From positions 1 to 64,000 of the forward strand of contig NZ_CABHOL010000054.1 in assembly GCF_902168135.1 (NCBI RefSeq): 64,000 nt of DNA. The letters run 5' to 3'. The DNA comes from an uncultured Fluviicola sp. GTDB lineage: Bacteria; Bacteroidota; Bacteroidia; Flavobacteriales_D; Crocinitomicaceae. Positions within the stretch are counted from its first letter, which is position 1; the number at the start of each line of letters is the position of its first letter. The notes beneath the pieces were generated by a model, which searched no databases, was not told the DNA's origin, and saw only the letters and a list, made by a program, of their open reading frames with translations. A program made the translations under genes and the position numbers. Below, one piece after another: positions 10,792-64,000 of the stretch.

Positions 10792-10795
10792 TGTA

Positions 10796-10953
10796 GAATT
10801 GAAAATTGAGAATTGAAAAGAAGAGAAAGCACTGCTTTCGATAAAAATCCCGAAGTTTCGGGATTAGTGCAGTTTACTAAGCATTGCTTTCGATACATCT
10901 GCTGAAGCAGATTTAACATACTTGTCAATTGTCAATTTTCCATTATCAATTAG
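10796..10953. repeat. Composite inverted repeat with heptamer arms and nested hairpins
   Basis: The left arm (10796-10820) is GAATTGA AAATTGA GAATTGA AAAG. The right arm (10922-10953), read on the other strand, is TAATTGA TAATGGA AAATTGA CAATTGA, so both arms are tandem 7-base words. Between them sit GAAAGC-act-GCTTTC (10825-10839), ATCCCGAA-gt-TTCGGGAT (10847-10864) and ATCTGCT-ga-AGCAGAT (10897-10912), plus two copies of GCTTTCGATA. The right arm ends 5 bases before the menG start codon. Confidence 0.75.
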
Positions 10954-11690: not shown

Positions 11691-11698
11691 TTGAAAAG

Positions 11699-11757
11699 GT
11701 TCAAGAGTTAAAAAGTTTAAACTTTTTGAATATTTAGACTCTTTGAACTGATTTTTT
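11699..11757 (+). terminator. Word-repeat hairpin acting as probable menG terminator
   Basis: GTTCAAGAGT (11699-11708) pairs with ACTCTTTGAAC (11738-11748, one bulge) around the perfect 18-bp palindrome AAAAAGTTTAAACTTTTT (11710-11727), followed by TGATTTTTTT. The arms read as degenerate 8-base words such as GTTCAAAG AGTCTAAA TATTCAAA on the minus strand, like the other word repeats. The T-run makes termination likely. Confidence 0.55.
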
Positions 11758-23976: not shown

Positions 23977-24038
23977 ATAATTACGGAATTGACAATTAAA
24001 GAATAATTCGCAATTCGGCATTCGTAATTCGGAATTAT
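23977..24038. repeat. Heptamer word repeat (NAATTCG) before rpsO
   Basis: TAATTCG CAATTCG GCATTCG TAATTCG GAATTAT (24004-24038) is a 7-base tandem series. The segment at 23977-23997 read on the other strand is AATTGTC AATTCCG TAATTAT, so the whole forms an imperfect inverted repeat. It ends 4 bases before the -7 box of rpsO. Confidence 0.65.
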
Positions 24039-24042
24039 CTAG

Positions 24043-24050
24043 TATCTTTG
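24043..24050 (+). promoter_or_regulatory. -7 box TATCTTTG of rpsO
   Basis: TATCTTTG is a perfect TAnnTTTG, 56 bases before the rpsO ATG. The -33 region is occupied by the heptamer repeat and has no TTG box. Confidence 0.6.
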
Positions 24051-24105
24051 CAACGGATTTCCAAGAGTTGGAGTTCTACATAATAATCATTCAAGTAATA
24101 TTGGC

Positions 24106-53129: not shown

Positions 53130-54149
53130 ATGCATTTTGTTGACTTCCGCTCAGATACCGTTACCAAGCCTTCTAAAGAAATGCTGGATGCCATGTTTAA
53201 TGCTTCTGTGGGAGATGATGTATATGGCGAAGACCCGACTGTAAACGAATTGCAGGAATATGCAGCACAGCTTTTCGGAAAGGAAGCAGCTTTGTTTTGC
53301 GCAAGCGGAACACAAACCAACCAAATCGCGATCAATATTCATGTGAAACCCGGCGGAGAAGTCATCTGCCACGAAGAAAGCCACATTTACAAGTATGAAG
53401 GCGGCGGAATTGCAAAAAACTCCGGGGCATCCGTTCGTTTGCTTCCCGGAAACCGCGGACGTTTAACGGCTGCTGAAATTGAAAAATGGATCATGCCGGA
53501 TGATGTGCATTTTCCGGTAACACAGTTAATTTCCCTCGAAGATACGGCCAATCGCGGTGGCGGTGCAGTGTATGATTTTAGTGATATAGAAGCGATCTCC
53601 CGTTTGGCGAAGTCTAAAAATATTCCCCTGCATTTGGATGGCGCACGTATTTTTAATGCGCTTGATGTGAATGGAATTGATATCAAAAAATATGCATCTC
53701 AGTTCGATTCGATCTCTATTTGCCTGTCGAAAGGTTTGGGAGCTCCCGTGGGATCTTTGCTTGTAGGGACGAAGGAATTCATCCACCAAGCCAGAAGAGT
53801 GCGCAAGGTCATGGGTGGGGGAATGCGCCAGGCCGGATTCCTCGCAGCAGCGGGTCTTTATGCATTAAAGAATAATGTCAGCCGCCTTTCCGAAGATCAT
53901 GAACTGGCTAAACAATTGGAAAGTGCTTTTTTGGCATGCAATTGGATTGAAAGCAGTCTGCCTGTAGAAACAAATATTTTAGTGGTAATTTTGAAGGACG
54001 AAACGAAGCGGGACCATTACATTCACAAACTCGGGGAGCTGGGGGTAAAAGTTTCGGCATTCGGACCCGGAATGATCCGTTTGGTGACGCATTTGGATGT
54101 TTCTCCGGAAGACGTAACATACACGATCGAACAATTGAAGAAGATATGA
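53130..54149 (+). CDS. ltaE: Low-specificity L-threonine aldolase
   Basis: A 339-residue PLP enzyme that cleaves L-threonine or allo-threonine to glycine and acetaldehyde. The start at 53130 (MHFVDFRSDTVTKPSKEML) matches the family and lies after the upstream terminator and the promoter. FRSDTVTKP, GDDVYGEDPTVNELQ, HLDGARIFNA and the PLP lysine in SICLSKGLGAPVGS are all present. The C-terminal TNILVVIL segment is also usual. The stop overlaps the start of a long reading of the next gene, but the true lipoprotein start is at 54200. Confidence 0.93.
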   Translation: MHFVDFRSDTVTKPSKEMLDAMFNASVGDDVYGEDPTVNELQEYAAQLFGKEAALFCASGTQTNQIAINIHVKPGGEVICHEESHIYKYEGGGIAKNSGASVRLLPGNRGRLTAAEIEKWIMPDDVHFPVTQLISLEDTANRGGGAVYDFSDIEAISRLAKSKNIPLHLDGARIFNALDVNGIDIKKYASQFDSISICLSKGLGAPVGSLLVGTKEFIHQARRVRKVMGGGMRQAGFLAAAGLYALKNNVSRLSEDHELAKQLESAFLACNWIESSLPVETNILVVILKDETKRDHYIHKLGELGVKVSAFGPGMIRLVTHLDVSPEDVTYTIEQLKKI

Positions 54150-54205
54150 GAAAAAGCGAAGCTTTTGAAGACAATGCCATGACAAGCGTCAGTGCGAAAA
54201 TGGCA
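54146..54205. repeat. Single copy of the AAAAGCGAAGCTTTT double-hairpin element
   Basis: AAAAAGCGAAGCTTTT (54150-54165) is followed by CAAGCGTCAGTGCG, matching the 40-bp units at 58148 (CAAGCGTTAGCGCG). ATGCCAT and ATGGCAT (about 54175 and 54199) pair and enclose the second part, an outer arm different from that at 58 kb. It overlaps the ltaE stop and the lipoprotein start. Confidence 0.7.
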
Positions 54206-54871
54206 TGGAAAATATTCACAGTATTCCTTACCGCATTTACAATGATCTTGCTCGTTTCCTGCGGAGATGATAAACCGGACACGGTTTCGCTGGAGGATAT
54301 TTCCCACACTTCGGATAAGTTCGATCATATTGACGACGATAAGCCCCAGGTGGAAATAAAAGATCAAAAACCTAAGAAAGGGTATTTTTTAACGGCGTTC
54401 GATTCAATCTACAAAGATGCATCCTGGTTTATGCTTGACAGTTTGCTTTTCCCGGACCGTTTCGGTCCTTCCAAAATGGAAAAATGGTACCTGTTAAACA
54501 AAAAAGACAGTATTGTAGCACTTCACTATGAATTCAAAGACAGCCTGAGAACAAAAAATGCCTTTTTCAACTGGATTGACTGTTATGGACCAAAATGCGC
54601 TTCTTACCAGGTTGGATCTCAGTTCAAAAAACAAAGTAGGAATTCCCTATTTCTTATCGGGGTAAACCATTTGGTTTATTTAGAATCTCAATCACCGATT
54701 AAAACAGAAGCATTGATTGGTATCCTGAATGAAAAGAAGAAAGACCGGAATTGGATATACGTGCTCGAAATACCGGGAAGGAAGCTTACCCGCTGGTCTA
54801 CAATGAAAGAAGGAGAGTTGAAAGAATTAAACGGACAAAAGACAGAAGACGCAAGACAAAAGACTATTTAA
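54200..54871 (+). CDS. Lipoprotein of unknown function
   Basis: A 223-residue lipoprotein. The ATG at 54200 gives a clean signal (MAWKIFTVFLTAFTMILLVSC, too long by one to be the shortest form but with lipobox LVSC). The frame is open to 54146, where the codons come from a repeat element. The mature part begins with acidic residues (CGDDKPDTVSLEDISHTSDK), then a helical-beta region with FDSIYKDASWFMLDSLLFPD. No family recognised. The last codons (GQKTEDARQKTI) are encoded by the left arm of a heptamer repeat at 54833, so the natural end of the protein may be earlier. Confidence 0.75.
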   Translation: MAWKIFTVFLTAFTMILLVSCGDDKPDTVSLEDISHTSDKFDHIDDDKPQVEIKDQKPKKGYFLTAFDSIYKDASWFMLDSLLFPDRFGPSKMEKWYLLNKKDSIVALHYEFKDSLRTKNAFFNWIDCYGPKCASYQVGSQFKKQSRNSLFLIGVNHLVYLESQSPIKTEALIGILNEKKKDRNWIYVLEIPGRKLTRWSTMKEGELKELNGQKTEDARQKTI

Positions 54872-54904
54872 GTCTTAAGTCTTTTGTCTGATGTCTTTGG
54901 TCTC
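54833..54904. repeat. Heptamer inverted repeat, NGACNNA family
   Basis: Left arm (54833-54867): GGACAAA AGACAGA AGACGCA AGACAAA AGACTAT. Right arm (54870-54904): AAGTCTT AAGTCTT TTGTCTG ATGTCTT TGGTCTC. Both have exact 7-base period and pair with each other. The left arm is translated as the end of the upstream lipoprotein. Confidence 0.85.
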
Positions 54905-54918
54905 AAAAAAAAAGAAAC

Positions 54919-55248
54919 ATGAAAGTAGTAAACAGAGGATACATTTACGTAGAACCGAAACAAGCCTTTTGCGATTGGGCTAAGCAGCATGACCCGGAAT
55001 TTGATTTTGATGAATCGGACGACCTGGAAGGAAATCTTTATCTAATTGAGGAAGACTTTTTTGAGTACGAACCGTTGATCGAAGCACATTTCAAGAAAAT
55101 CATGAAAAATGAGTGTCTGGCAGTAGTCGATTCAGACGATGAGTACCCGAAACCAACCCTGGAATTATTCCTCGAGTGGTTCACAATTCGCATAGGATCA
55201 AGCGTTTTTGACACACAAAAGACAGATTTGGAAAGCGACAAGTTATAA
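54919..55248 (+). CDS. Small acidic cytoplasmic protein of unknown function
   Basis: A 109-residue protein without signal peptide. It is strongly acidic (FDFDESDDLEGNLYLIEEDF) and predicted alpha/beta: an opening strand NRGYIYVEPKQAFCDWAKQ, a helix EPLIEAHFKKIMKNE, then a C-terminal segment ELFLEWFTIRIGSSVFDTQ. I recognise no family; proteins of this shape recur in Bacteroidota. It is preceded by a heptamer hairpin ending 14 bases before its ATG. Confidence 0.75.
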   Translation: MKVVNRGYIYVEPKQAFCDWAKQHDPEFDFDESDDLEGNLYLIEEDFFEYEPLIEAHFKKIMKNECLAVVDSDDEYPKPTLELFLEWFTIRIGSSVFDTQKTDLESDKL

Positions 55249-55339
55249 ATAGCATTTGACCGATTGTTGAAATCATTTCACCGATTTTAGCACCCGTTTT
55301 CTTTTTTTTCGATCTAATTTAGCTCCATAATTGATTATT

Positions 55340-57484
55340 ATGAAGTATTTACTATTGCTTATGGGCTTGATTCCCTTTTGTTTAATGGCGCAGACTTCCA
55401 TTGAAGGAACCGTATTGAACCAAAGTGGAAAGCCTGTTTTTATGGCCACTGTTTTCGTTAAAGGAACTACCGACGGAGCTCAGACAGATGAAAAAGGGAT
55501 GTACAAGCTGTCTACTAAAATGACGGGTAAGCAAACGCTTGTTATTCGCGGAGATGAATTGGAAGAACAATCCATCGAAGTCAATCTGACAGGATCTCCG
55601 CTTACCCAAAATATTAAAGTCCGGCAGTCAAAAGCCATTGAAGAAGTGGTTATTTCCGCGGGAACGATGTCGGCATCCAATGACCGCACTGTCGCGATCC
55701 TGGATCCTTTGGATATTGTGACAACAGCCGGCGGACAGGGAGATATTGCCGGTGCAATCCAAACACTTCCCGGAGTGCAGCGAAATGGTGGTGACCAAAC
55801 TGGTTTGATGGTGCGTGGAGGAGATGTAAGCGAAACGTCTTTCATTGTAGATGGTTTGGTAGCCCAAAATGCTTTTGGAAGTGCTGTTCCCGGAGTGGCA
55901 CAAAGAACACGTTTCAATCCTTTCCAGTTCAAGGGAACTGCTTTCAGTACCGGAGGATACACTGCACGCTACGGCCAGGCTTTGTCTTCTGTTTTGGATT
56001 TAAGCACTTTAGATCTTCCGGACCAGACAAATATCAATATCGGGGCAAATTTTGCAGGGATTTTCCTGGGAGGTTCTAAATTAATGGAAAACCAGGCTGT
56101 TGAATTTACGGGGTTTTATCAGAATTTGTCACCCTTTTTAGCCCTGGCAAAAGCAAATGTGAAATTCTATGAAGCTCCGCAGGGATTTGGCTTTTCAGGA
56201 AGATATGTCGCTAAAACCTCTACCAGGGGAATGTTCAAAATGACCTTCAATCAAACTTATAACAGTTCAGGATTGGAAATCCCGAATCCGGAGGTGGCGG
56301 GGGCTGATATGCGTTTCGGACTGAAAAACCAAAATACCTATGTCAATACGACATTTAAGAATTTTATCAACGATAAGTGGTTGTATTATGTGGGATTCTC
56401 ATTGAGCAATAACGACGATGATATTACCTGGGACACACTGATTTCTACCAGGAATGACAAACGTGTTCAGGGGCGCGGTGAATTGATCTATACAGCCGGC
56501 AATCGTTTTAAGATGGTAATAGGATCTGAATTACAGCATTTCCAATACCGTCAGACTTTTGATACTTTAACCGGACAATTTGCAGAAATGCTGAGTGCGG
56601 GTTATATAGAAGCAGATATTATCCCGTTCCGGAACTTTGCGATCAAACCGGGAGTGCGCGCTGAATATTCGAAATTATTGGCAAAGGGAAATATTTCCCC
56701 GCGATTGGCAATGGCTATCAAAACAAGTAAAAACAGCCAGATCTCACTGGCTTCCGGGTATTTCTATCAGCTTGCATCGCAAAACTATCTGATGCAGGGC
56801 TACAGACCGAATTTCCAGGAAGCGCTGCATTTAATGGCAAATTACCAGATCATTGCAAAGAACCGCATATTCAGATTGGAAGGTTATTACAAATCTTACG
56901 ACCAGTTGATCCGCGAACAGGGTGTTGCTTATACACCGAATGCATTCCGCTTCAATTATGGAATGGTGGATAACAGCGGATCGGGTTATGCCCAGGGAAT
57001 TGATGTTTTCTGGAGAGATAAAAAATCAATCAAAAATTTTGATTACTGGATTTCATACAGTTATATCGATACAAAGCGATTGTACCAAAACTACATCAGC
57101 AAGGTCACACCCGATTATGTTTCCGATCACAACCTGAATGTAGTGATGAAGTATTTTTCGATGAAACTTCAAACGAGTTTTTCACTTACCTATAGCTACG
57201 CAAGCGGAAGACCGTACTATAATCCGACCAGCACAAGATTCCTGGGAGATCGCTCACCGGAGTATCACAACCTGGCATTTACGGCAGCGTATTTAACAAC
57301 TATTAAAAAGTTCTTTACGGTATTTTATATTAGTTTGGATAACATCACCAATCAGCACAATGTGCTGGGGTACAGATACAGTTACGACGGAAGCCAGAGA
57401 TTTGATGTGAAGCCTCCGTTTTATTTCAATATTTTCTTCGGGTTCAATTTATCTCTGAAGGAATTTAATAAAGATGAACTTTAA
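55340..57484 (+). CDS. TonB-dependent receptor with carboxypeptidase-like N-terminal domain
   Basis: A 714-residue outer membrane receptor; the start at 55340 gives the signal peptide MKYLLLLMGLIPFCLMAQ. A carboxypeptidase-regulatory-like domain (IEGTVLNQSGKPVFMATVFV, DEKGMYKLST) is followed by the plug (GDIAGAIQTLPGVQRNGGDQ, TGLMVRGGDVSETSFIVDGL) and then a short TonB-receptor barrel with the terminal strand FYFNIFFGFNLSLKEF. It is shorter than most SusC-type receptors and has no SusD partner, so it probably imports a siderophore, cofactor or peptide. It is followed in 10 bases by a small exported TPR-like gene, likely its partner. Confidence 0.92.
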   Translation: MKYLLLLMGLIPFCLMAQTSIEGTVLNQSGKPVFMATVFVKGTTDGAQTDEKGMYKLSTKMTGKQTLVIRGDELEEQSIEVNLTGSPLTQNIKVRQSKAIEEVVISAGTMSASNDRTVAILDPLDIVTTAGGQGDIAGAIQTLPGVQRNGGDQTGLMVRGGDVSETSFIVDGLVAQNAFGSAVPGVAQRTRFNPFQFKGTAFSTGGYTARYGQALSSVLDLSTLDLPDQTNINIGANFAGIFLGGSKLMENQAVEFTGFYQNLSPFLALAKANVKFYEAPQGFGFSGRYVAKTSTRGMFKMTFNQTYNSSGLEIPNPEVAGADMRFGLKNQNTYVNTTFKNFINDKWLYYVGFSLSNNDDDITWDTLISTRNDKRVQGRGELIYTAGNRFKMVIGSELQHFQYRQTFDTLTGQFAEMLSAGYIEADIIPFRNFAIKPGVRAEYSKLLAKGNISPRLAMAIKTSKNSQISLASGYFYQLASQNYLMQGYRPNFQEALHLMANYQIIAKNRIFRLEGYYKSYDQLIREQGVAYTPNAFRFNYGMVDNSGSGYAQGIDVFWRDKKSIKNFDYWISYSYIDTKRLYQNYISKVTPDYVSDHNLNVVMKYFSMKLQTSFSLTYSYASGRPYYNPTSTRFLGDRSPEYHNLAFTAAYLTTIKKFFTVFYISLDNITNQHNVLGYRYSYDGSQRFDVKPPFYFNIFFGFNLSLKEFNKDEL

Positions 57485-57493
57485 TTACAGATT

Positions 57494-58141
57494 ATGAAGC
57501 AAGTGATTTTAACAGTGATTTTGGCATTTACACTTCAAGCAAATGCACAGGATGAAATCAAAAAAGAACTGGAACCAATTTGCGCAACCTTTGATTCGAC
57601 TTACACCCTGGAAGGATGGAAAGCGAAATCGGATCAGTTCGCAGTCCTGAAGGAAAAATATCCTGAGAATTGGATGCCGGCTTATTATTACGCATATTCA
57701 TGTGTACAGATGTCTTATTTTGAAACTGCTTTGACACTAAAAGATATGTTGGTTGATAATGCGGAAGGACAGATGACTAAAATCGAAGCATGCCCTTTGA
57801 CGGATGAGGTGCACATCATGAAGGCGCTTATAGCAAACGCAAGAATCGGGGCGGATCCTGAAAACCGCTGGCAGAAATACGGGAAAATTTTTGACGATAA
57901 CCTGAAGGCTGCCAAAGGAATCAATGAGAACAATCCGCACATATACCTGTTGAAGGGAATTTCTACTTTCTATACGCCGAAAATGTTTGGCGGAGGTGCT
58001 AAAAATGCTCAGACTTACTTTGAAAAAGCGCAGGCAAAATACGATTTGATCACCTACACAGATGTAGATAAACCTTATTGGTGGGGAAGAGGTACCTGCA
58101 GGTATTTCTTCGGTGAGGTTGCAAAGGAATTAAATAAATAA
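57494..58141 (+). CDS. Exported TPR-like protein next to the TonB-dependent receptor
   Basis: A 215-residue protein: signal peptide MKQVILTVILAFTLQANAQ and an alpha-helical mature chain with TPR-like helix pairs (NWMPAYYYAYSCVQMSYFET, MKALIANARIGADPENRWQK, NPHIYLLKGISTFYTPKMFG). A two-Cys arrangement (TIEACPLTDE, GTCRYFFG) is present. It has no catalytic motif. The 10-base gap to the receptor implies one transcript and perhaps a periplasmic adaptor. It is immediately followed by four tandem 40-bp repeats, which replace a normal terminator. Confidence 0.8.
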   Translation: MKQVILTVILAFTLQANAQDEIKKELEPICATFDSTYTLEGWKAKSDQFAVLKEKYPENWMPAYYYAYSCVQMSYFETALTLKDMLVDNAEGQMTKIEACPLTDEVHIMKALIANARIGADPENRWQKYGKIFDDNLKAAKGINENNPHIYLLKGISTFYTPKMFGGGAKNAQTYFEKAQAKYDLITYTDVDKPYWWGRGTCRYFFGEVAKELNK

Positions 58142-58147
58142 GAAAAA

Positions 58148-58305
58148 GCGAAGCTTTTGATGATGTCAAGCGTTAGCGCGGACAATTGCGAAGCTTTTGA
58201 TGATGTCAAGCGTTAGCGCGGACAATTGCGAAGCTTTTGATGATGTCAAGCGTTAGCGCGGACAATTGCGAAGCTTTTGATGATGTCAAGCGTTAGCGCG
58301 GACAA
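58148..58305. repeat. Tandem array of four 40-bp double-hairpin units
   Basis: Copies start at 58148, 58188, 58228 and 58268; the last lacks its final two bases. They are identical: GCGAAGCTTTTGATGATGTC then AAGCGTTAGCGCGGACAATT. In the first copy the flank completes AAAAGC-GAA-GCTTTT; TGTC...GACA and GCG-TTAG-CGC pair within each unit. There are no spacers, so it is not a CRISPR array. Confidence 0.92.
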
Positions 58306-58308
58306 GGA

Positions 58309-58346
58309 ATAATGTGGGCACGCGATTAATCGCGTGCCCACATTAT
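58309..58346. repeat. Perfect 38-bp palindrome between convergent genes
   Basis: ATAATGTGGGCACGCGATT and its exact complement, core CGCG-ATTAAT-CGCG. It comes 3 bases after the 40-bp array and 3 bases before the stop of the CYTH gene on the opposite strand. Likely a bidirectional transcript end. Confidence 0.9.
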
Positions 58347-58349
58347 GTT

Positions 58350-58802
58350 TTATGCTTTTTCAATCAATTTCGAATTGTAATACTGCACATCATCACTAAC
58401 CTCTTTTTCAATCCAACCAGGAAGCTCAAATGCTTCTTCTTCGGATTCCAATTCGATCTCTGCGATCTTCAATCCTTCCAGTTTGCCGTGGAAGATATCA
58501 ATTTCCCATTTCTTTTCTCCTATAACCAGCTCAAAGCGTTCCTTTTCCAGTACTTTCGGACAGAAATTACTTAGCAGCTGATTGGCATCCTCCAATGGGA
58601 TTTCGTATTCAAATTCGTCTCTTGAGATTCCTATTGATTTTCCCTTAATGGTTAAATATCCTTTGTCCCCCTTGGTGCGCACACGAACTGTTTTCCCATC
58701 GATATCGGAAATGTATCCCTGTCGTATTTTTTTTGATTGCAGGTATTTGACTACATCTGTGATGGTATCGCTTACCAGGTATTTCCGCTCAATTTCTTTC
58801 AT
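58350..58802 (-). CDS. CYTH-domain protein
   Basis: A 150-residue CYTH (adenylyl cyclase/thiamine triphosphatase-like) protein. The signature EIERKYLV is at residues 3-10. Strands VRVRTKGDKGYLTIKGK, EFEYEIPLEDANQLL, LVIGEKKWEIDIFHGKLEGL and IAEIELESEEEAF line the triphosphate tunnel with alternating charged residues. Such small bacterial proteins are usually inorganic triphosphatases; the substrate cannot be read here. A thiamine-triphosphate role is possible in view of the thi operon but not indicated by position. Its upstream region holds a heptamer hairpin shared with the divergent deacetylase gene. Confidence 0.92.
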   Translation of the reverse strand: MKEIERKYLVSDTITDVVKYLQSKKIRQGYISDIDGKTVRVRTKGDKGYLTIKGKSIGISRDEFEYEIPLEDANQLLSNFCPKVLEKERFELVIGEKKWEIDIFHGKLEGLKIAEIELESEEEAFELPGWIEKEVSDDVQYYNSKLIEKA

Positions 58803-58808
58803 TTATTT

Positions 58809-58882
58809 TAGACTAAAGACATTAGACAAGAGACTGAAGACCAAACTAGTCTCTTGTCTTTGGTCTCAGGTCTAATGTCTGC
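58809..58882. repeat. Heptamer inverted repeat, NAGACNN family, in a divergent promoter region
   Basis: Left: TAGACTA AAGACAT TAGACAA GAGACTG AAGACCA. Right: AGTCTCT TGTCTTT GGTCTCA GGTCTAA TGTCTGC. Both arms have period 7 and pair along nearly their full length. It starts 7 bases before the CYTH start codon (minus strand). Confidence 0.85.
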
Positions 58883-58953
58883 TAAAATACGATAGATTTT
58901 GGGAAAAACATTCTGCTGGTCCGTAAACCAACCGATTATATTATCTTCGTAGT

Positions 58954-59946
58954 ATGCAGGTAATTCTGACATTTGATTACGAGTTGTTCTTCGGAACATA
59001 TACCGGAAGCGTCCAAAAATGTATGATCGAGCCAACTGATCGTCTGTTGGCAATTGCCCGCAAATTTGATATTCCACTGGTTTTCTTCGTGGATATTGGT
59101 TTTCTGATCAAACTGCAGGAATACAAGCAGCACTTCCCGGAACTGGAAGAAGATTATAATAGCATAAGAAATCAGTTTGCCGAAATTGCGGCCTCCAACT
59201 CCGAAGTTCAATTGCACATTCATCCGCATTGGGAAAAATCTCATTACGACGGTGAAAAATGGGTGGTTGTTACGGATGGCTGTTACAAATTGTCCGATTT
59301 TCCGGATGAGGAAGCGGAAGCTATCGTTCGGAAGTATTATCAATACCTGACAAATTTTACAGGTAAAAAACCAACGACCTATCGTGGGGGAGGTTGGTGT
59401 ATTCAGCCATTTAGCCAGATTGAGAAGGTGCTTCAGGAACTTGGGATCGAAAAGGATTCTACTGTTTTTCCGGGAGGAAAGTTCGAGTCGGAGCATTATC
59501 AGTTTGATTTTACAGCTGTTTCACGCTTCGAAAATCCCTACCGCTTTCAATCCGATGTCACGAAAGCAGAACCAAACGGATATTTCCTCGAAATACCGAT
59601 TGCTTCCTGGGAGTTTTCTCCACTGTTCTATTGGCGGCTGTATGTGTTGGGCCGGTTGAATCCTTCGGCTCATAAAATGATAGGTGACGGATCTTTTTTG
59701 GCTCAACCGGGAAGGAAAAAGTCTGTTTTGCTCCATAAAACCTGGAATCATGTAAGTTCCGACGGTTATTATGCTTCACAATTAACAAAACAGGCGAACT
59801 ATTATTCGGACAAAAAGGTGAAAACGTTTGTGGTAATCGGACATCCGAAAGGAATGACTCACTATTCCCTAAAACAGCTGGAGAAATTTATTTCCCGTAC
59901 AAAATCCCTTTATGAATTCGTAAATTTCGACTCATGCAGTTTGTAA
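58954..59946 (+). CDS. Polysaccharide deacetylase-like (NodB-fold) protein
   Basis: A 330-residue cytoplasmic protein with NodB-type landmarks: TFDYELFFGTY at residue 6 (catalytic Asp), QLHIHPHWEKS (metal histidines), TYRGGGWCIQPF (Arg motif) and the late LLHKTWNHVSSDG. The first Asp is followed by Tyr-Glu rather than the common DDG, a form also seen in PEP-CTERM/exosortase-linked deacetylases. It may deacetylate a sugar during surface polysaccharide assembly. It overlaps the FemAB-like gene by 13 bases. A TATCTTCG box lies only 4 bases before the ATG, so translation may be leaderless. Confidence 0.85.
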   Translation: MQVILTFDYELFFGTYTGSVQKCMIEPTDRLLAIARKFDIPLVFFVDIGFLIKLQEYKQHFPELEEDYNSIRNQFAEIAASNSEVQLHIHPHWEKSHYDGEKWVVVTDGCYKLSDFPDEEAEAIVRKYYQYLTNFTGKKPTTYRGGGWCIQPFSQIEKVLQELGIEKDSTVFPGGKFESEHYQFDFTAVSRFENPYRFQSDVTKAEPNGYFLEIPIASWEFSPLFYWRLYVLGRLNPSAHKMIGDGSFLAQPGRKKSVLLHKTWNHVSSDGYYASQLTKQANYYSDKKVKTFVVIGHPKGMTHYSLKQLEKFISRTKSLYEFVNFDSCSL

Positions 59947-60806
59947 AAGCGGATTCGAAAGCCATAAAAAACAAATGGGACGAATTGGTCTCATTGAATC
60001 ATTGTTCTGTTTTCTCGGAGTCGGTGTATTTGGATGCCACGGCAGATAATTGGTCTATTCTCTATTCGGATGATTTTAAATCCGGGATGGCTTGTCCGTA
60101 CGTTGTTAAAGGCGGTGTGAAGATTTTGGTAACTCCATTTTTCAACCGTTTTATGGAGTGGGTGGGAGAACCGATTCCGGAAGAGGAACTGATTGCCGCT
60201 CTTAAGGGTGAATTCCCGGTTGCAGATCTGCAAGTAGGAAGAGGATTTAGCTTAAATCAGCGGATTTACCAGGAATTGGATCCTGGAAAGTTGAAACTGA
60301 ACCAGCAGGCAAAGCGCTCCTTGAATAAGTCGGTCAATTTTGTAGTAACCAGGGAGCAGAACATTCCGGCAATGATGGATTTGCTTCAAAATGAGTTGCA
60401 GAACCGTATTCACGGGATCAATGAGCAAACACTTCCTATATTGGAGAAATTGGTGGAGAATTATGCGGATAAGCGCCTGTTACAGTTTAATTTATTGGAC
60501 GGTAACAACTGGCTGGGCGGCATTTGGATATTGGAAACAGATACTGCAGTTCTTTATCTGAAAGGAACGACCAATGAGGAAGCAAAGAAATCCGGAGGAA
60601 TGTACAAATTGATGCTGAGTGCCATTGAGTACGCGGCGTCCAGGGGAAAGATATTCGATTTCGGAGGTTCGAATGTGGAGTCAGTGAGAAGGTTTAATTT
60701 GAATTTCGGCGCGGAAGATGTCGTATATTCGCATATAAGCTGGAATAATGCTCCGTTTTGGTGGAGAATAGTGAAAAAGATAAGAGATAAATGGATAAAA
60801 AAGTAA
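59934..60806 (+). CDS. FemAB/GNAT-like acyltransferase
   Basis: A 290-residue protein with a GNAT-related FemAB fold, of the type found beside polysaccharide genes. LLQFNLLDGNNWLGGIWILE, then AVLYLKGTTNEEAKKSGGMY and DFGGSNVESVRRFNLNFGAE are the recognisable core. An Asn/Gly-rich GSN turn replaces the usual acyl-donor contact, so the donor is uncertain (aminoacyl-tRNA or acyl-CoA). It overlaps the deacetylase by 13 and the SDR by 16 bases. This pairing resembles the FemAB-deacetylase pair of XrtA/PEP-CTERM exopolysaccharide clusters, but no exosortase is here. Confidence 0.78.
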   Translation: MQFVKADSKAIKNKWDELVSLNHCSVFSESVYLDATADNWSILYSDDFKSGMACPYVVKGGVKILVTPFFNRFMEWVGEPIPEEELIAALKGEFPVADLQVGRGFSLNQRIYQELDPGKLKLNQQAKRSLNKSVNFVVTREQNIPAMMDLLQNELQNRIHGINEQTLPILEKLVENYADKRLLQFNLLDGNNWLGGIWILETDTAVLYLKGTTNEEAKKSGGMYKLMLSAIEYAASRGKIFDFGGSNVESVRRFNLNFGAEDVVYSHISWNNAPFWWRIVKKIRDKWIKK

Positions 60807-61501
60807 TTCTGATTACCGGAGCTACAGGCGGATTAGGTTCTGCAATGGTGAAACATTTTGAAAAACAGGATGTGAGACTTGCATTGCATACTTTTCAGCA
60901 GGAACCGTTTGAAGTAGAATGTGAACATGCGTGGTTCAAAGCTGATTTGAGGGATGAGAACCAGGTAAAGAATTTACTAGCGAGTATCCTTGCCAACTTC
61001 GGAAGGGTGGATGTGCTCATTAACAATGCCGGAATTTCAAAGAATGGCATGAGCTGGAAATTGTCGCCAGCAGATTTTAATGAAGTTATTGCCGTGAATT
61101 TAACTGCACCGTTCCTGCTTTGCCAGGGAGTTATACCTGGCATGCGAACCAATAATTTCGGGCGGATTATTACTATTTCTTCCGTCGTTGCACAGACAGG
61201 TGTTCCGGGCACGGTGGCATACGCGGCTAGTAAAGCAGGTGTTTTGGGGATGACAAAAACCATAGCTAAAGAACTTGCAAACGGCGCGATTACCTGTAAT
61301 GCTTTGGCACTGGGTTACTTCGATCAGGGAATGATTTCCGAAGTCTCGGAAGAAATGCAGCAGCAGATTATTTCCCAAATCCCGAAGAACCGTTTAGGTG
61401 GCGTTGAAACTGTTTTGACTACAATCGACTGGCTTCTGAAAGATGAATCCGATTATGTTACCGGTCAAACGATTTCTTTAAACGGCGGGTTGTTTACCTG
61501 A
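60791..61501 (+). CDS. Short-chain dehydrogenase/reductase, FabG-like
   Basis: A 236-residue SDR: coenzyme motif TGATGGLGSAM (TGxxxGxG), NNAGISKNGM, the catalytic Ser in TISSVVAQTG and the YxxxK pair in VAYAASKAGVLG. C-terminal DYVTGQTISLNGGLFT resembles FabG. It reduces a ketone with NADPH. It could serve fatty acid synthesis, but its place in the glycan cluster (16-base overlap with the FemAB-like gene) suggests sugar or acyl modification. Its last codons contain the TTG of the next promoter (61490). Confidence 0.9.
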   Translation: MDKKVILITGATGGLGSAMVKHFEKQDVRLALHTFQQEPFEVECEHAWFKADLRDENQVKNLLASILANFGRVDVLINNAGISKNGMSWKLSPADFNEVIAVNLTAPFLLCQGVIPGMRTNNFGRIITISSVVAQTGVPGTVAYAASKAGVLGMTKTIAKELANGAITCNALALGYFDQGMISEVSEEMQQQIISQIPKNRLGGVETVLTTIDWLLKDESDYVTGQTISLNGGLFT

Positions 61502-61519
61502 TTTATTCCCTTAAATTTG
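61490..61519 (+). promoter_or_regulatory. Promoter TTG-N19-TAAATTTG
   Basis: TTG at 61490-61492 and TAAATTTG at 61512-61519, spacing 19. Transcription should start near 61525, after a GTG at 61522 and just before the ATG at 61531, so the mRNA leader would be very short. The TTG is inside the SDR coding end. Confidence 0.75.
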
Positions 61520-61530
61520 CAGTGAACAAA

Positions 61531-63423
61531 ATGAATAGCACGATCAACATGTTTCCTAAGAAAAACTTACCCCGTTGGATAATAATTCTGATTGATTTAT
61601 TCATTTCTGCGGTTTCTTTGGTGATCGCTTACCTGATACGCTTTGATATAAAAGCCGATCAAGGCCAATGGAAACTTGAGTTGGGAATTGTCAAGTATTC
61701 GATCATTGTTTTCTTTGCTGTCAGATTGATCGTTTTCCTCTTATTCGGAATTCATAAAGGAATTGTACGGCATACTTCTACTTCCGATTTTAAGCGTCTT
61801 TTTTTAGCAACAACGGCTTCATCTATTGTTTTTGTAATCCTGGGAATAGTACGCTATTATTGGATTGATAATTATTACCTGTTCCCTAGTTCAGTGATCG
61901 TAATCGAATACGTTTTCTGTTTCTTTTTACTGGCCGTTTCCCGTTTTGTAGTGAAATTATTGTACCTCGAATCGGTGAAATCAAGTAGTGAGCAAAAATT
62001 GGTGCTGATTTATGGTGCCGGAGTTTCAGGGTTGATTGCAAAACGTATTATAGAGAAAGATGTCCGGATCAATTTGAAAGTTTTTGGTTTCCTGGATGAT
62101 AATAGCCGTATTTCCGGAAATAGAATAGAAGGGGTTGAAGTGTTCCACACATCCAAGTTGGAAGAAATCCTTCAAAAAAATAAGATCCACCAAGTGATTA
62201 TTGCCATCCAAAACCTGGAGCCAGAAAAAAGAAGCATCATTGTTGAAAAAAGCATTGAAGCCGGGGTTGAAGTGAAAAAAGTACCAAGTCCTAAAAGCTG
62301 GATAAATGGTGCCTTTACCACTAACCAAATTGCGCAGGTAAATATTGAAGACCTGCTTGGAAGAACTCCGATTGTTCTGAACCAGGATAAACTCGTCGAT
62401 GGTTTGAAAGACCAGGTTGTACTTGTAAGCGGTGCGGCAGGTTCTATTGGTTCGGGAATTGTTCGTCAGGTATTGGAATACAAACCGAAATTGGTTGTTC
62501 TTTTGGACCAGGCGGAGTCGGCAATGTATGACCTGGAGTTTGAATTGAAACAATTGAAAGACATTCCTGCATTTGAAGTCGTAATCGGGGATATTTGTAA
62601 CGAAGAACGCATGGAACGTTTATTCGACACATTTAAGCCTTCCTGGGTTTTCCATGCAGCTGCATACAAACATGTACCGATGATGGAGTTGAACCCGTCG
62701 GAAGCTGTAAGGAATAATATCAAAGGGACTAAAATTCTGGTTGATTTGTCTAATAAGAAGGCTGTTCACAAGTTTGTCATGATATCAACGGATAAAGCCG
62801 TGAATCCGACAAATGTAATGGGAGCAAGTAAACGTATTGCCGAGATTATTGCGCAAGCGGCTAATACCGGTCAAACACAATTTATTACCACGCGTTTCGG
62901 AAATGTATTGGGGTCAAACGGTTCGGTGATCCCCTTGTTTAAGAAACAGATAGAACAGGGCGGACCTGTCACTGTAACTGACGAACGAATTACCCGTTAT
63001 TTCATGACCATTCCCGAAGCCTGCCAGTTGGTGTTGGAAGCAGGAATCATGGGAAGCGGTGGCGAGATTTATGTATTCGACATGGGTAAATCCGTTAAGA
63101 TTGTTGATTTGGCAAAAAAAATGATTAAATTATCCGGACTGGAATTGGGGAAAGATATTGAGATCCGTTATTCCGGGTTGAGGCCTGGTGAAAAACTGTA
63201 TGAAGAACTCTTGAATGATGCGGAGAACGTGCAGGAAACCCACCACCCGAAAATACTGATCGCATCGGAAAGAGAAGTTGATCCACGGGTTTACGATATC
63301 ATTGAAAAATTATTGGATTCAGTGGGAAAAACAGATAATTTTTCCCTGGTTGGCTTGATGAAAGAAGTTGTTCCCGAATTTATTTCGAACAACTCAGAAT
63401 ATAGTGTTTTAGATAAAAAATAG
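61531..63423 (+). CDS. UDP-sugar 4,6-dehydratase, CapD/WbpM/PglF type
   Basis: A 630-residue polytopic enzyme. Four membrane helices (about 15-125) come first, then a nucleotide-binding domain with YGAGVSGLIAKRII, then the extended SDR: GAAGSIGSGIVRQVLEY, HAAAYKHVPMMELNP, and STDKAVNPTNVMGASKRIAE, where Met replaces the classical catalytic Tyr, as in PglF/FlaA1/WbpM. These make UDP-4-keto-6-deoxy sugars (from UDP-GlcNAc) for O-antigen, capsule or protein glycans. The ATG at 61531 is preferred to a GTG at 61522 because of the promoter position. The thioesterase starts 4 bases downstream. Confidence 0.93.
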   Translation: MNSTINMFPKKNLPRWIIILIDLFISAVSLVIAYLIRFDIKADQGQWKLELGIVKYSIIVFFAVRLIVFLLFGIHKGIVRHTSTSDFKRLFLATTASSIVFVILGIVRYYWIDNYYLFPSSVIVIEYVFCFFLLAVSRFVVKLLYLESVKSSSEQKLVLIYGAGVSGLIAKRIIEKDVRINLKVFGFLDDNSRISGNRIEGVEVFHTSKLEEILQKNKIHQVIIAIQNLEPEKRSIIVEKSIEAGVEVKKVPSPKSWINGAFTTNQIAQVNIEDLLGRTPIVLNQDKLVDGLKDQVVLVSGAAGSIGSGIVRQVLEYKPKLVVLLDQAESAMYDLEFELKQLKDIPAFEVVIGDICNEERMERLFDTFKPSWVFHAAAYKHVPMMELNPSEAVRNNIKGTKILVDLSNKKAVHKFVMISTDKAVNPTNVMGASKRIAEIIAQAANTGQTQFITTRFGNVLGSNGSVIPLFKKQIEQGGPVTVTDERITRYFMTIPEACQLVLEAGIMGSGGEIYVFDMGKSVKIVDLAKKMIKLSGLELGKDIEIRYSGLRPGEKLYEELLNDAENVQETHHPKILIASEREVDPRVYDIIEKLLDSVGKTDNFSLVGLMKEVVPEFISNNSEYSVLDKK

Positions 63424-63426
63424 CTC

Positions 63427-63834
63427 ATGTTAGATTCTTACAGACTGCAGGTTCGTTTTTCTGATTGTGATATGATGCAGCATGTGAATAATGCTGTTTA
63501 CCTGAATTATTTCGAAGAAGCAAGGATCCATTATTTCCGTCAGATGCTTGGTATGGACTGGGATTGGAAAAAGACCGGTGTGATCCTCCGAAAGAATGAA
63601 TTGGAATACCTGAAACCAGTATTCCTGCATGAGCCGGTCGAAATTTTTGTTTACCTGAAACATGTCGGAGAAAAAAGTTTTACCTTATCTTACGAAGTAA
63701 AAGTATTGAACGAAGTCAAAACAACCGGGAGCTCCGTGCTTGTTTGCTACGACAGCATTAATAAATGTTCTATTCCGATTCCGAAAAGAATGAGAGATGC
63801 GCTGTCAAAGCTTTCGTTGAAGTTGGAACAATAA
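63427..63834 (+). CDS. Acyl-CoA thioesterase, 4-hydroxybenzoyl-CoA thioesterase family
   Basis: A 135-residue hotdog-fold protein. RFSDCDMMQHVNNAVYLNYF (from residue 10) is the 4HBT/YbgC-like pattern with the catalytic Asp (in SDCD) and the HVNN helix start; FEEARIHYFRQML follows. EYLKPVFLHEPVEIFVYLKH is also characteristic. It hydrolyses an acyl-CoA thioester; which chain is unknown. It follows the dehydratase by 4 bases, perhaps by chance since pathway links are not clear. A heptamer hairpin follows it. Confidence 0.9.
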   Translation: MLDSYRLQVRFSDCDMMQHVNNAVYLNYFEEARIHYFRQMLGMDWDWKKTGVILRKNELEYLKPVFLHEPVEIFVYLKHVGEKSFTLSYEVKVLNEVKTTGSSVLVCYDSINKCSIPIPKRMRDALSKLSLKLEQ

Positions 63835-63845
63835 TTGATTAATTC

Positions 63846-63916
63846 AAGACTTTTAGACGTTAGACACAGGACAAAAGATGGGTCTTGCGTCTTGTGTCTT
63901 TAGTCTTAAGTCTTAG
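63846..63916. repeat. Heptamer inverted repeat, NAGACNN family
   Basis: Left: AAGACTT TTAGACG TTAGACA CAGGACA AAAGATG (one 8-base step). Right: GTCTTGC GTCTTGT GTCTTTA GTCTTAA GTCTTAG, exact period 7. The arms pair. It ends 5 bases before the next start codon. Confidence 0.85.
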
Positions 63917-63921
63917 AAAAT

Positions 63922-64000
63922 ATGAGAATTTTAGTTGTAATTTTTTGTTTGTTTTCACTGGCAGTTGCCGCCCAGCCTGATTTTGGAGTAAAAAAAGAAT
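63922..64000 (+). CDS. Start of an exported protein, cut by window edge
   Basis: The first 26 codons read MRILVVIFCLFSLAVAAQ and then PDFGVKKE, a Sec signal peptide with cleavage after AVAAQ or so. The rest is beyond the window. Its start codon lies 5 bases after a heptamer hairpin. Confidence 0.75.
   Translation, partial: MRILVVIFCLFSLAVAAQPDFGVKKE

Follow-up and report, generated by a model that had tools for sequence, protein, structure and literature searches.

Gene junctions of the genus Fluviicola carry arrays of short degenerate words in two facing arms. A tentative case can be made that these arrays form a new class of element at gene junctions, one that follows a grammar instead of arising as copies, with a set number of words per arm, a fixed core and step, spacers that are free but unlike their neighbors, arms that face each other, and dialects that species share and that replace one another at the same junction. 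If this reading is true it implies a reader that marks gene boundaries whatever the direction of the genes, and the genus would mark many junctions, including atpD-atpC and ftsZ-yqeY, by means of an unnamed element. Two dialects are distinguished, A with AGACNNN words at a 7-nt step and B with RGAYWTYA words at an 8-nt step. What is read in the A element is its cores and step, more than its spacers, and not a stem whose arms co-evolve in register. The explanation that we prefer, with reservation, is a two-armed array of sequence-read words bound by a putative DNA-binding protein, an RNA stem being nearly as likely. Detection depends on the periodic core, sequence similarity being of no help, so that searches for repeats or RNA families pass the element over; Rfam gave no match up to an E value of 1 in positions 54000-64000.

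Facing Arrays in the Window

The window, that is, the whole stretch of 64,000 nt that was analyzed, contains three facing arrays (54833-54903, 58810-58880 and 63847-63913, all given on the forward strand), each with five AGACNNN-type and five GTCT words, where 0 are expected by chance. The facing pattern gave 8 matches in the window vs. 0.00 in shuffles and the three-word pattern AGACNNNAGACNNNAGAC gave 14 vs. a mean of 0.00 in 100 shuffles; over the whole of the same genome the three-word pattern matched 32 times and its reversed control 0 times.

The ten consecutive 7-base words in two facing arms that the preliminary description had reported were borne out at site 1, at a chance level of 0.00 in shuffles. 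The step is 7 nt in both arms. The left arm (54833-54864) consists of one GGAC and four AGAC words, with cores starting at 54833 (GGAC), 54840, 54847, 54854 and 54861, and encodes the last residues of a lipoprotein ORF (54146-54871) that ends ...GQKTEDARQKTI*. The earlier claim that this arm codes for the end of the lipoprotein thus stands, but the stop codon that it was thought to supply (TAA, 54869-54871) lies outside the arm, in the loop TATTTAA (54865-54871). The five GTCT words of the right arm (54872-54903) start at 54872, 54879, 54886, 54893 and 54900, and the arm ends 15 nt upstream of the ATG of an ORF at 54919-55248; the junction is shared with relatives.

Similar hairpins had been noted near 58809 and 63846 and are found there as the arrays of sites 2 and 3. 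At site 2, a divergent junction that carries the other dialect in some relatives, five AGAC words (58810-58841) lie 7 nt from the ATG of a CYTH-domain gene on the reverse strand (58350-58802) and five GTCT words (58849-58880) lie 73 nt from the start of an ORF on the forward strand (58954-59946). Site 3 begins 12 nt past the stop codon of a thioesterase-like gene (63427-63834) and deviates in its outer step, the first, which is 8 nt, and in two altered left cores, so that its left arm (63847-63879) reads AGAC, AGAC, AGAC, GGAC, AGAT; the right arm (63882-63913) has five GTCT words and is followed by an ATG at 63924. The same junction in G008, G006 and G013 holds arrays with different spacers.

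Autocorrelation at lag 7, which had been suggested as a check, was computed for the window only. It shows no overall excess (0.256, vs. 0.254-0.272 at the other lags from 4 to 20), but 7 is the only lag of this range with long matching stretches (at least 22/28 matches), of which there are two, one of them at 63878-63917.

Further degenerate word arrays are visible by eye in the window, AATTGA-like (about 10795-10830), facing GTTCAAGA-like (11691-11750) and AATTCGN-like (23990-24060), and perhaps represent further dialects. The gap before the CYTH gene (58148-58305) contains a 40-nt unit in four perfect tandem copies, not seen in the same gap of nine relatives.

Architecture and Placement

The catalogue holds 89 distinct facing arrays (66 A and 23 B) from loci of 12 Fluviicola genomes. 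These loci were chosen among the matches listed and do not cover whole genomes, several of which are under-sampled (one array each from G007, G006 and G004, none from G005), and identical sequences are counted once, so that arrays equal in two species enter once; the total is at least 89. The catalogue supports the suggestion that a degenerate tandem heptamer in two facing arms is a recurring element. The commonest design is five plus five words (24/66 A, 4/23 B), and at least one arm has exactly five counted words in 54/66 A and 14/23 B arrays; some shorter arms continue, by eye, with altered cores. The median length is 73 nt for A and 81 nt for B. Loops of 6-9 nt occur in 36/66 A arrays vs. 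4/23 B arrays, and the outermost step of A arrays is often 8 nt. Arrays at different junctions have the periodic core in common and not the spacers. A short CCGCTTTGCTGAAAG-like module breaks, by eye, one arm of several A arrays (L068, site 1 of G006; L080, site 2 of G008; L081, site 2 of G006).

The arrays sit at gene junctions: none of the 89 lies wholly within a called gene, and some overlap the end of one. They separate 64 co-directional, 12 convergent and 12 divergent gene pairs, and one lacks a called right neighbor. These classes follow the frequencies of background junctions (102 co-directional, 23 convergent, 18 divergent), a background that comprises the window and seven orthologous 12-kb loci with their arrays included and is therefore not independent. 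Genes were called as codon-scored ORFs, and negative distances stand for overlaps or doubtful starts. At co-directional junctions the array starts a median of 2 nt from the stop codon and ends a median of 13 nt upstream of the next start, and the gap that remains without the array has a median of 18 nt in the 64 cases, vs. 9 nt for ordinary gaps and 92 nt for length-biased random intergenic insertion. In 11 of the 12 divergent cases the array overlaps one start codon or sits within 21 nt of one, so that nearly all arrays could be transcribed. The two arms are alike in their share of AGAC (213/236 words on the left and 205/238 on the right in co-directional A arrays). Named by Pfam, atpD-atpC and ftsZ-yqeY are among the gene pairs with an array inside; the junction of L041 and L053 is one that we take to be rpsB-tsf.

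Distribution Among Genomes

The facing A pattern has matches in 11/14 genomes of the genus, with 0 control matches in all 14, and the B pattern in 10/14, its control matching 0 to 5 times in each genome. At the level of the order, A was found in 28/299 genomes (genus members counted) and control matches in 2. A phylum-wide element was rejected, as in a sample of the phylum A occurs in 4/198 genomes (its own included) and the control also in 4/198, which is control level outside the order. A CAGANNN dialect, which the control matches within the order had suggested, was also rejected (6/299 genomes vs. the control in 3); the inference that prompted this search was wrong, the control reading TCTG...CAGA, and by eye no arrays are convincing except those with CAGATTA/CAGATTG/CAGATGA in G009, G011 and G277.

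The nearest named homologues of a neighboring protein, from 10 loci, are mainly in Fluviicola records, including F. chungangensis MAH-3 and CP034120.1. The latter (L306) is a complete genome labeled Glaciecola amylolytica that was placed in this genus and is probably a mislabeled record.

One genus genome of 2.9 Mb, G010, is without a match to either dialect pattern over its whole length, and none of its five scored junctions holds an array, its ftsZ-yqeY gap being 2 nt long. This would fit the loss of a shared reader, and as a relative without either dialect this genome would provide a route to finding the reader.

Conserved Place and Changing Words

The comparison took in the three window sites within the genus and, for atpD-atpC and ftsZ-yqeY, as many as 40 relatives. 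Gaps were scored for chains of facing cores relative to shuffles of their own sequence (threshold p ≤ 0.0075). In a clade of nine species (G000-G003, G006-G008, G012 and G013) the array is present at this threshold in 40/44 cases over the five junctions. Four cases fall short, namely site 1 (p 0.0475) and site 3 (p 0.0875) in G007 as well as site 2 (p 0.37) and ftsZ-yqeY (p 0.03) in G006; by eye, all of them hold eroded arrays. Outside the clade, 0/14 genus gaps pass at sites 1-3 and atpD-atpC, and ftsZ-yqeY passes in G004, G005, G009 and G011. The counts inside and outside the clade exclude atpD-atpC in G002, G004 and G005, where the gap was not usable, and sites 2 and 3 in G005 and G009, for want of data. 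Arrays with other wording are seen by eye at ftsZ-yqeY in G022 and G026, the former scoring p 0.0975 with the A/B cores and reading by eye as AGANNNT words.

The dialect at one and the same junction differs between species, which is not visible from the window alone. Assigned by eye, site 1 is A in G000, G002, G006 and G008 and B in G001, G003, G007, G012 and G013; site 2 is A in G000, G006, G008, G012 and G013 and B in G001, G002, G003 and G007; site 3 is A in G000, G002, G006, G008 and G013 and B in G001, G003, G007 and G012. Switches of dialect at a fixed junction serve as a natural experiment that bears on the part of the element being read.

Within dialect A, differing sites in 44 orthologous pairs amount to 44/1595 in the core (2.8%), 294/945 in the spacers (31%) and 73/277 in the loop. 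The core figure is too favorable, cores having served both to find and to align the arrays, and the pairs are not independent of each other. At atpD-atpC, the flanks of G008 and G001 are 0.93/0.93 identical and their arrays 0.53, and G003 and G013 have flank identities of 0.78/0.87 with an array identity of 0.93. Array identity is thus untied to that of the flanks, and the arrays behave like alleles that move from one species to another, or else they are tightly conserved inside each class. In the same gap, comparison of L221 (G001) with L225 (G006) suggests by eye that the loop between near-equal arms is inverted.

Pairing Between Arms and Likeness Between Neighbors

Folded as RNA, the three window arrays reach -30.1 to -32.5 kcal/mol (z -5.3 to -7.0). 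The preliminary description called for a check of compensatory change between the arms and took words that pair no better than chance as a refutation. By this standard the hairpin holds through the constant core only: spacer complementarity, examined in five registers, shows nothing in register beyond the shared word in A (0.337 vs. 0.371 ± 0.020, 180 pairs) or in B (0.629 vs. 0.614 ± 0.033, 56 pairs). Compensatory change finds no support in the cores either, facing C-to-T changes numbering 2 vs. about 2 expected from the table marginals. Compared with spacer-shuffled arrays, folding energies do not differ significantly (mean z -0.15 for A and 0.01 for B). The non-Watson-Crick core cells of co-directional arrays comprise, on the sense strand, 42 G-U vs. 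74 A-C (p 0.004), or 27.6 vs. 48.1 with one array per ortholog cluster (p about 0.03), so that G-U is not favored; a transcribed stem would tolerate the opposite of this excess of A-C over G-U. The sense strand of co-directional arrays is the more stable one in 21/49 A and 5/16 B cases, and 38 arrays give no sign of outer step lengths matched between the arms.

Some signals lean toward a stem. The first loop pair pairs at p 0.036 in A and 0.035 in B, the three outer bases at p 0.046 in A (0.50 in B), and 41/210 left spacers of A have an exact complement anywhere in the facing arm (null 31.8 ± 5.0), without such an excess in B (24/73; null 25.1 ± 3.6). On these tests taken together, a base-paired stem is rejected as the conserving force, whereas formation of a stem is not rejected. 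By contrast, four GATTAATC palindromes in the window (24509, 32944, 42058 and 58324) have perfect half-arms of 10, 17, 14 and 19 nt. They make up a second intergenic family, around CGCGATTAATCGCG, with outer arms that are variable but fully complementary.

Another check suggested there was whether the arms evolve by slippage with subsequent copying to the opposite strand, which predicts that neighbors are alike. In A, spacers that adjoin within an arm resemble one another less than by chance (0.277 vs. 0.372 ± 0.015, z -6.2), at all three positions and with unique arms alone (0.275), and only 4/284 pairs are identical vs. 14.8 expected, which speaks against slippage and template switching. B shows no such avoidance (0.622 vs. 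0.618 ± 0.020). Words two and three apart are more alike, not significantly (z 0.6 and 1.4 in A, 0.9 and 1.9 in B). Plausibly, arrays with equal neighbors slip and get lost. At L039 (G001) and L045 (G017), over 15 AGAC or GTCT words follow one another in a single arm, with spacers that repeat as if from slippage; these long runs are unlike the facing arrays.

Candidate Explanations

According to the preferred explanation, the array fills the gap between two genes with, commonly, five copies of (A/G)GA(C/T) at a step of 7 nt (A) or 8 nt (B), the opposite arm presenting the same words on the other strand. A putative oligomerizing protein would bind these words on double-stranded DNA and form a symmetric nucleoprotein block working in either direction, which may act as an insulator or as a partial block to transcription between neighboring genes. 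The likeness of the arms and their indifference to gene direction favor double-stranded DNA as the thing read, and with it a bound symmetric block at the junction; cores that are kept beside free spacers, and a place kept in 40/44 cases while words and dialect change, also support reading on DNA, as do the lack of pairing in register beyond the word, folding energies no lower than with shuffled spacers, the low share of G-U on the sense strand and the case of G010. Counted against it are the strong RNA folds, the weak signs of pairing, the nearness to start codons at divergent junctions and the absence of one candidate reader: Pfam RHH_1, a fold known for binding 7-bp repeats, was found in 0/14 genus genomes (the control in 8/14 known genomes; the search covered RHH_1 alone), which speaks against an RHH_1 protein. 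Moreover, two dialects with different steps at one junction are not easily explained by one sequence-specific protein.

The facing words could also be transcribed and fold back into a hairpin whose 4-bp helices are interchangeable and pair in whatever register, by which mRNA ends would be protected or processed, or expression of the downstream gene lowered; we consider this possible and lean somewhat away from it. Each word would pair with several partners, so that uniform cores would be kept and compensating pairs not favored, and as any dialect would do, switching would be explained. The strong folds predicted for the window arrays agree with such a hairpin, as do the loops of 6-9 nt in over half of the A arrays, the closeness of co-directional arrays to stop and start codons, including those of atpD-atpC and ftsZ-yqeY, and the slight excess of apical pairing and, in A, of exact complements in any register. 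It is at odds with spacers and cores that lack in-register covariation, with the absence of an energy gain over shuffled spacers, with unmatched outer steps and with the excess of A-C on the sense strand; G-T pairing in stems, which the accessible part of one study takes as a sign of RNA function in REPs (PMC3733652), is absent as such a sign in the arrays. That the arrays are selfish or purely mutational, recurring at junctions by insertion, slippage or template switching without function, appears unlikely. The differently worded ftsZ-yqeY arrays of G022 and G026 (by eye), the atpD-atpC alleles that are alike where the flanks of the species differ, and the long one-armed runs of G001 and G017 would suit this account. 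Little beyond the core is shared between junctions, however, A neighbors avoid identity, the arms are not in-register copies of each other, the clade retains its arrays, and the array-free gap is nearer to the ordinary length than to that for random insertion. Intrinsic terminators acting both ways are highly improbable: the fold is stable and 12/89 arrays lie between convergent genes, but the 8 terminator-like sites (a GC-containing stem, then a T run) listed for 54000-64000 include none of the arrays in the window, and arrays occur between atpD and atpC and beside start codons at divergent junctions.

Comparison With Known Systems

None of the known elements considered fits the arrays. The met-box arrays bound by MetJ consist of AGACGTCT at an 8-bp step and occur at promoters of the methionine regulon in gammaproteobacteria. 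They resemble the present arrays in AGAC/GTCT half-words and in array binding, and differ in belonging to methionine promoters of gammaproteobacteria and not to gene junctions of Fluviicola. Unlike MITEs, which are copies from one sequence, arrays at different junctions share the core pattern only (judged partly by eye). The preliminary description found the arrangement as long inverted heptamer arrays unfamiliar, and nothing comparable was found in searches of an open-access library; most subscription papers lie outside it, so that absence in print is not established. It also likened the arrays to the STRRs of cyanobacteria, which are heptamer direct repeats; the tandem heptamers agree, but the likeness is loose, as the words are not exact copies.

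In the accessible part of a report on TAACTGA (PMC4679880), heptamer direct repeats of this kind are described from Beggiatoaceae, Cyanobacteria and five Bacteroidetes. These repeats and STRRs share with the arrays a 7-nt step, a tandem arrangement and a mostly intergenic place, often just upstream of a start codon; they are exact direct repeats of varying number, whereas the arrays have 4 of 7 bases fixed, neighbors that differ (identical tandem heptamers are rarer than expected in A) and facing arms. REP/BIME elements, as far as the accessible part of PMC3733652 describes them, are small interspersed palindromes with a GTAG or CGTC tag, mostly outside genes and often between co-directional or convergent ones, and in these respects, the tag excepted, they are like the arrays. 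REPs, however, have a tag tetranucleotide and come as families of similar copies with a stem, whereas the arrays have a periodic core with spacers that do not covary, a stem that is not kept by pairing of the arms, and no similar copies genome-wide, junctions sharing the core without the spacers; divergent junctions hold as many of the arrays as convergent ones do (12 and 12), unlike in REPs. The parS sites of pSM19035, according to the accessible part of PMC9499535, are contiguous 7-bp WATCACW repeats, direct and inverted, that are bound by the RHH protein ParB/omega. They are plasmid partition sites at promoters, whereas the arrays lie at chromosomal gene junctions, have 7- and 8-bp dialects and come from a genus with RHH_1 in 0/14 genomes; both consist of non-palindromic 7-bp words, at least four in a row and in both orientations (PMC9499535, same part), and such runs of at least four contiguous 7-bp words, direct or inverted, are present in the three window arrays and in most A arrays.
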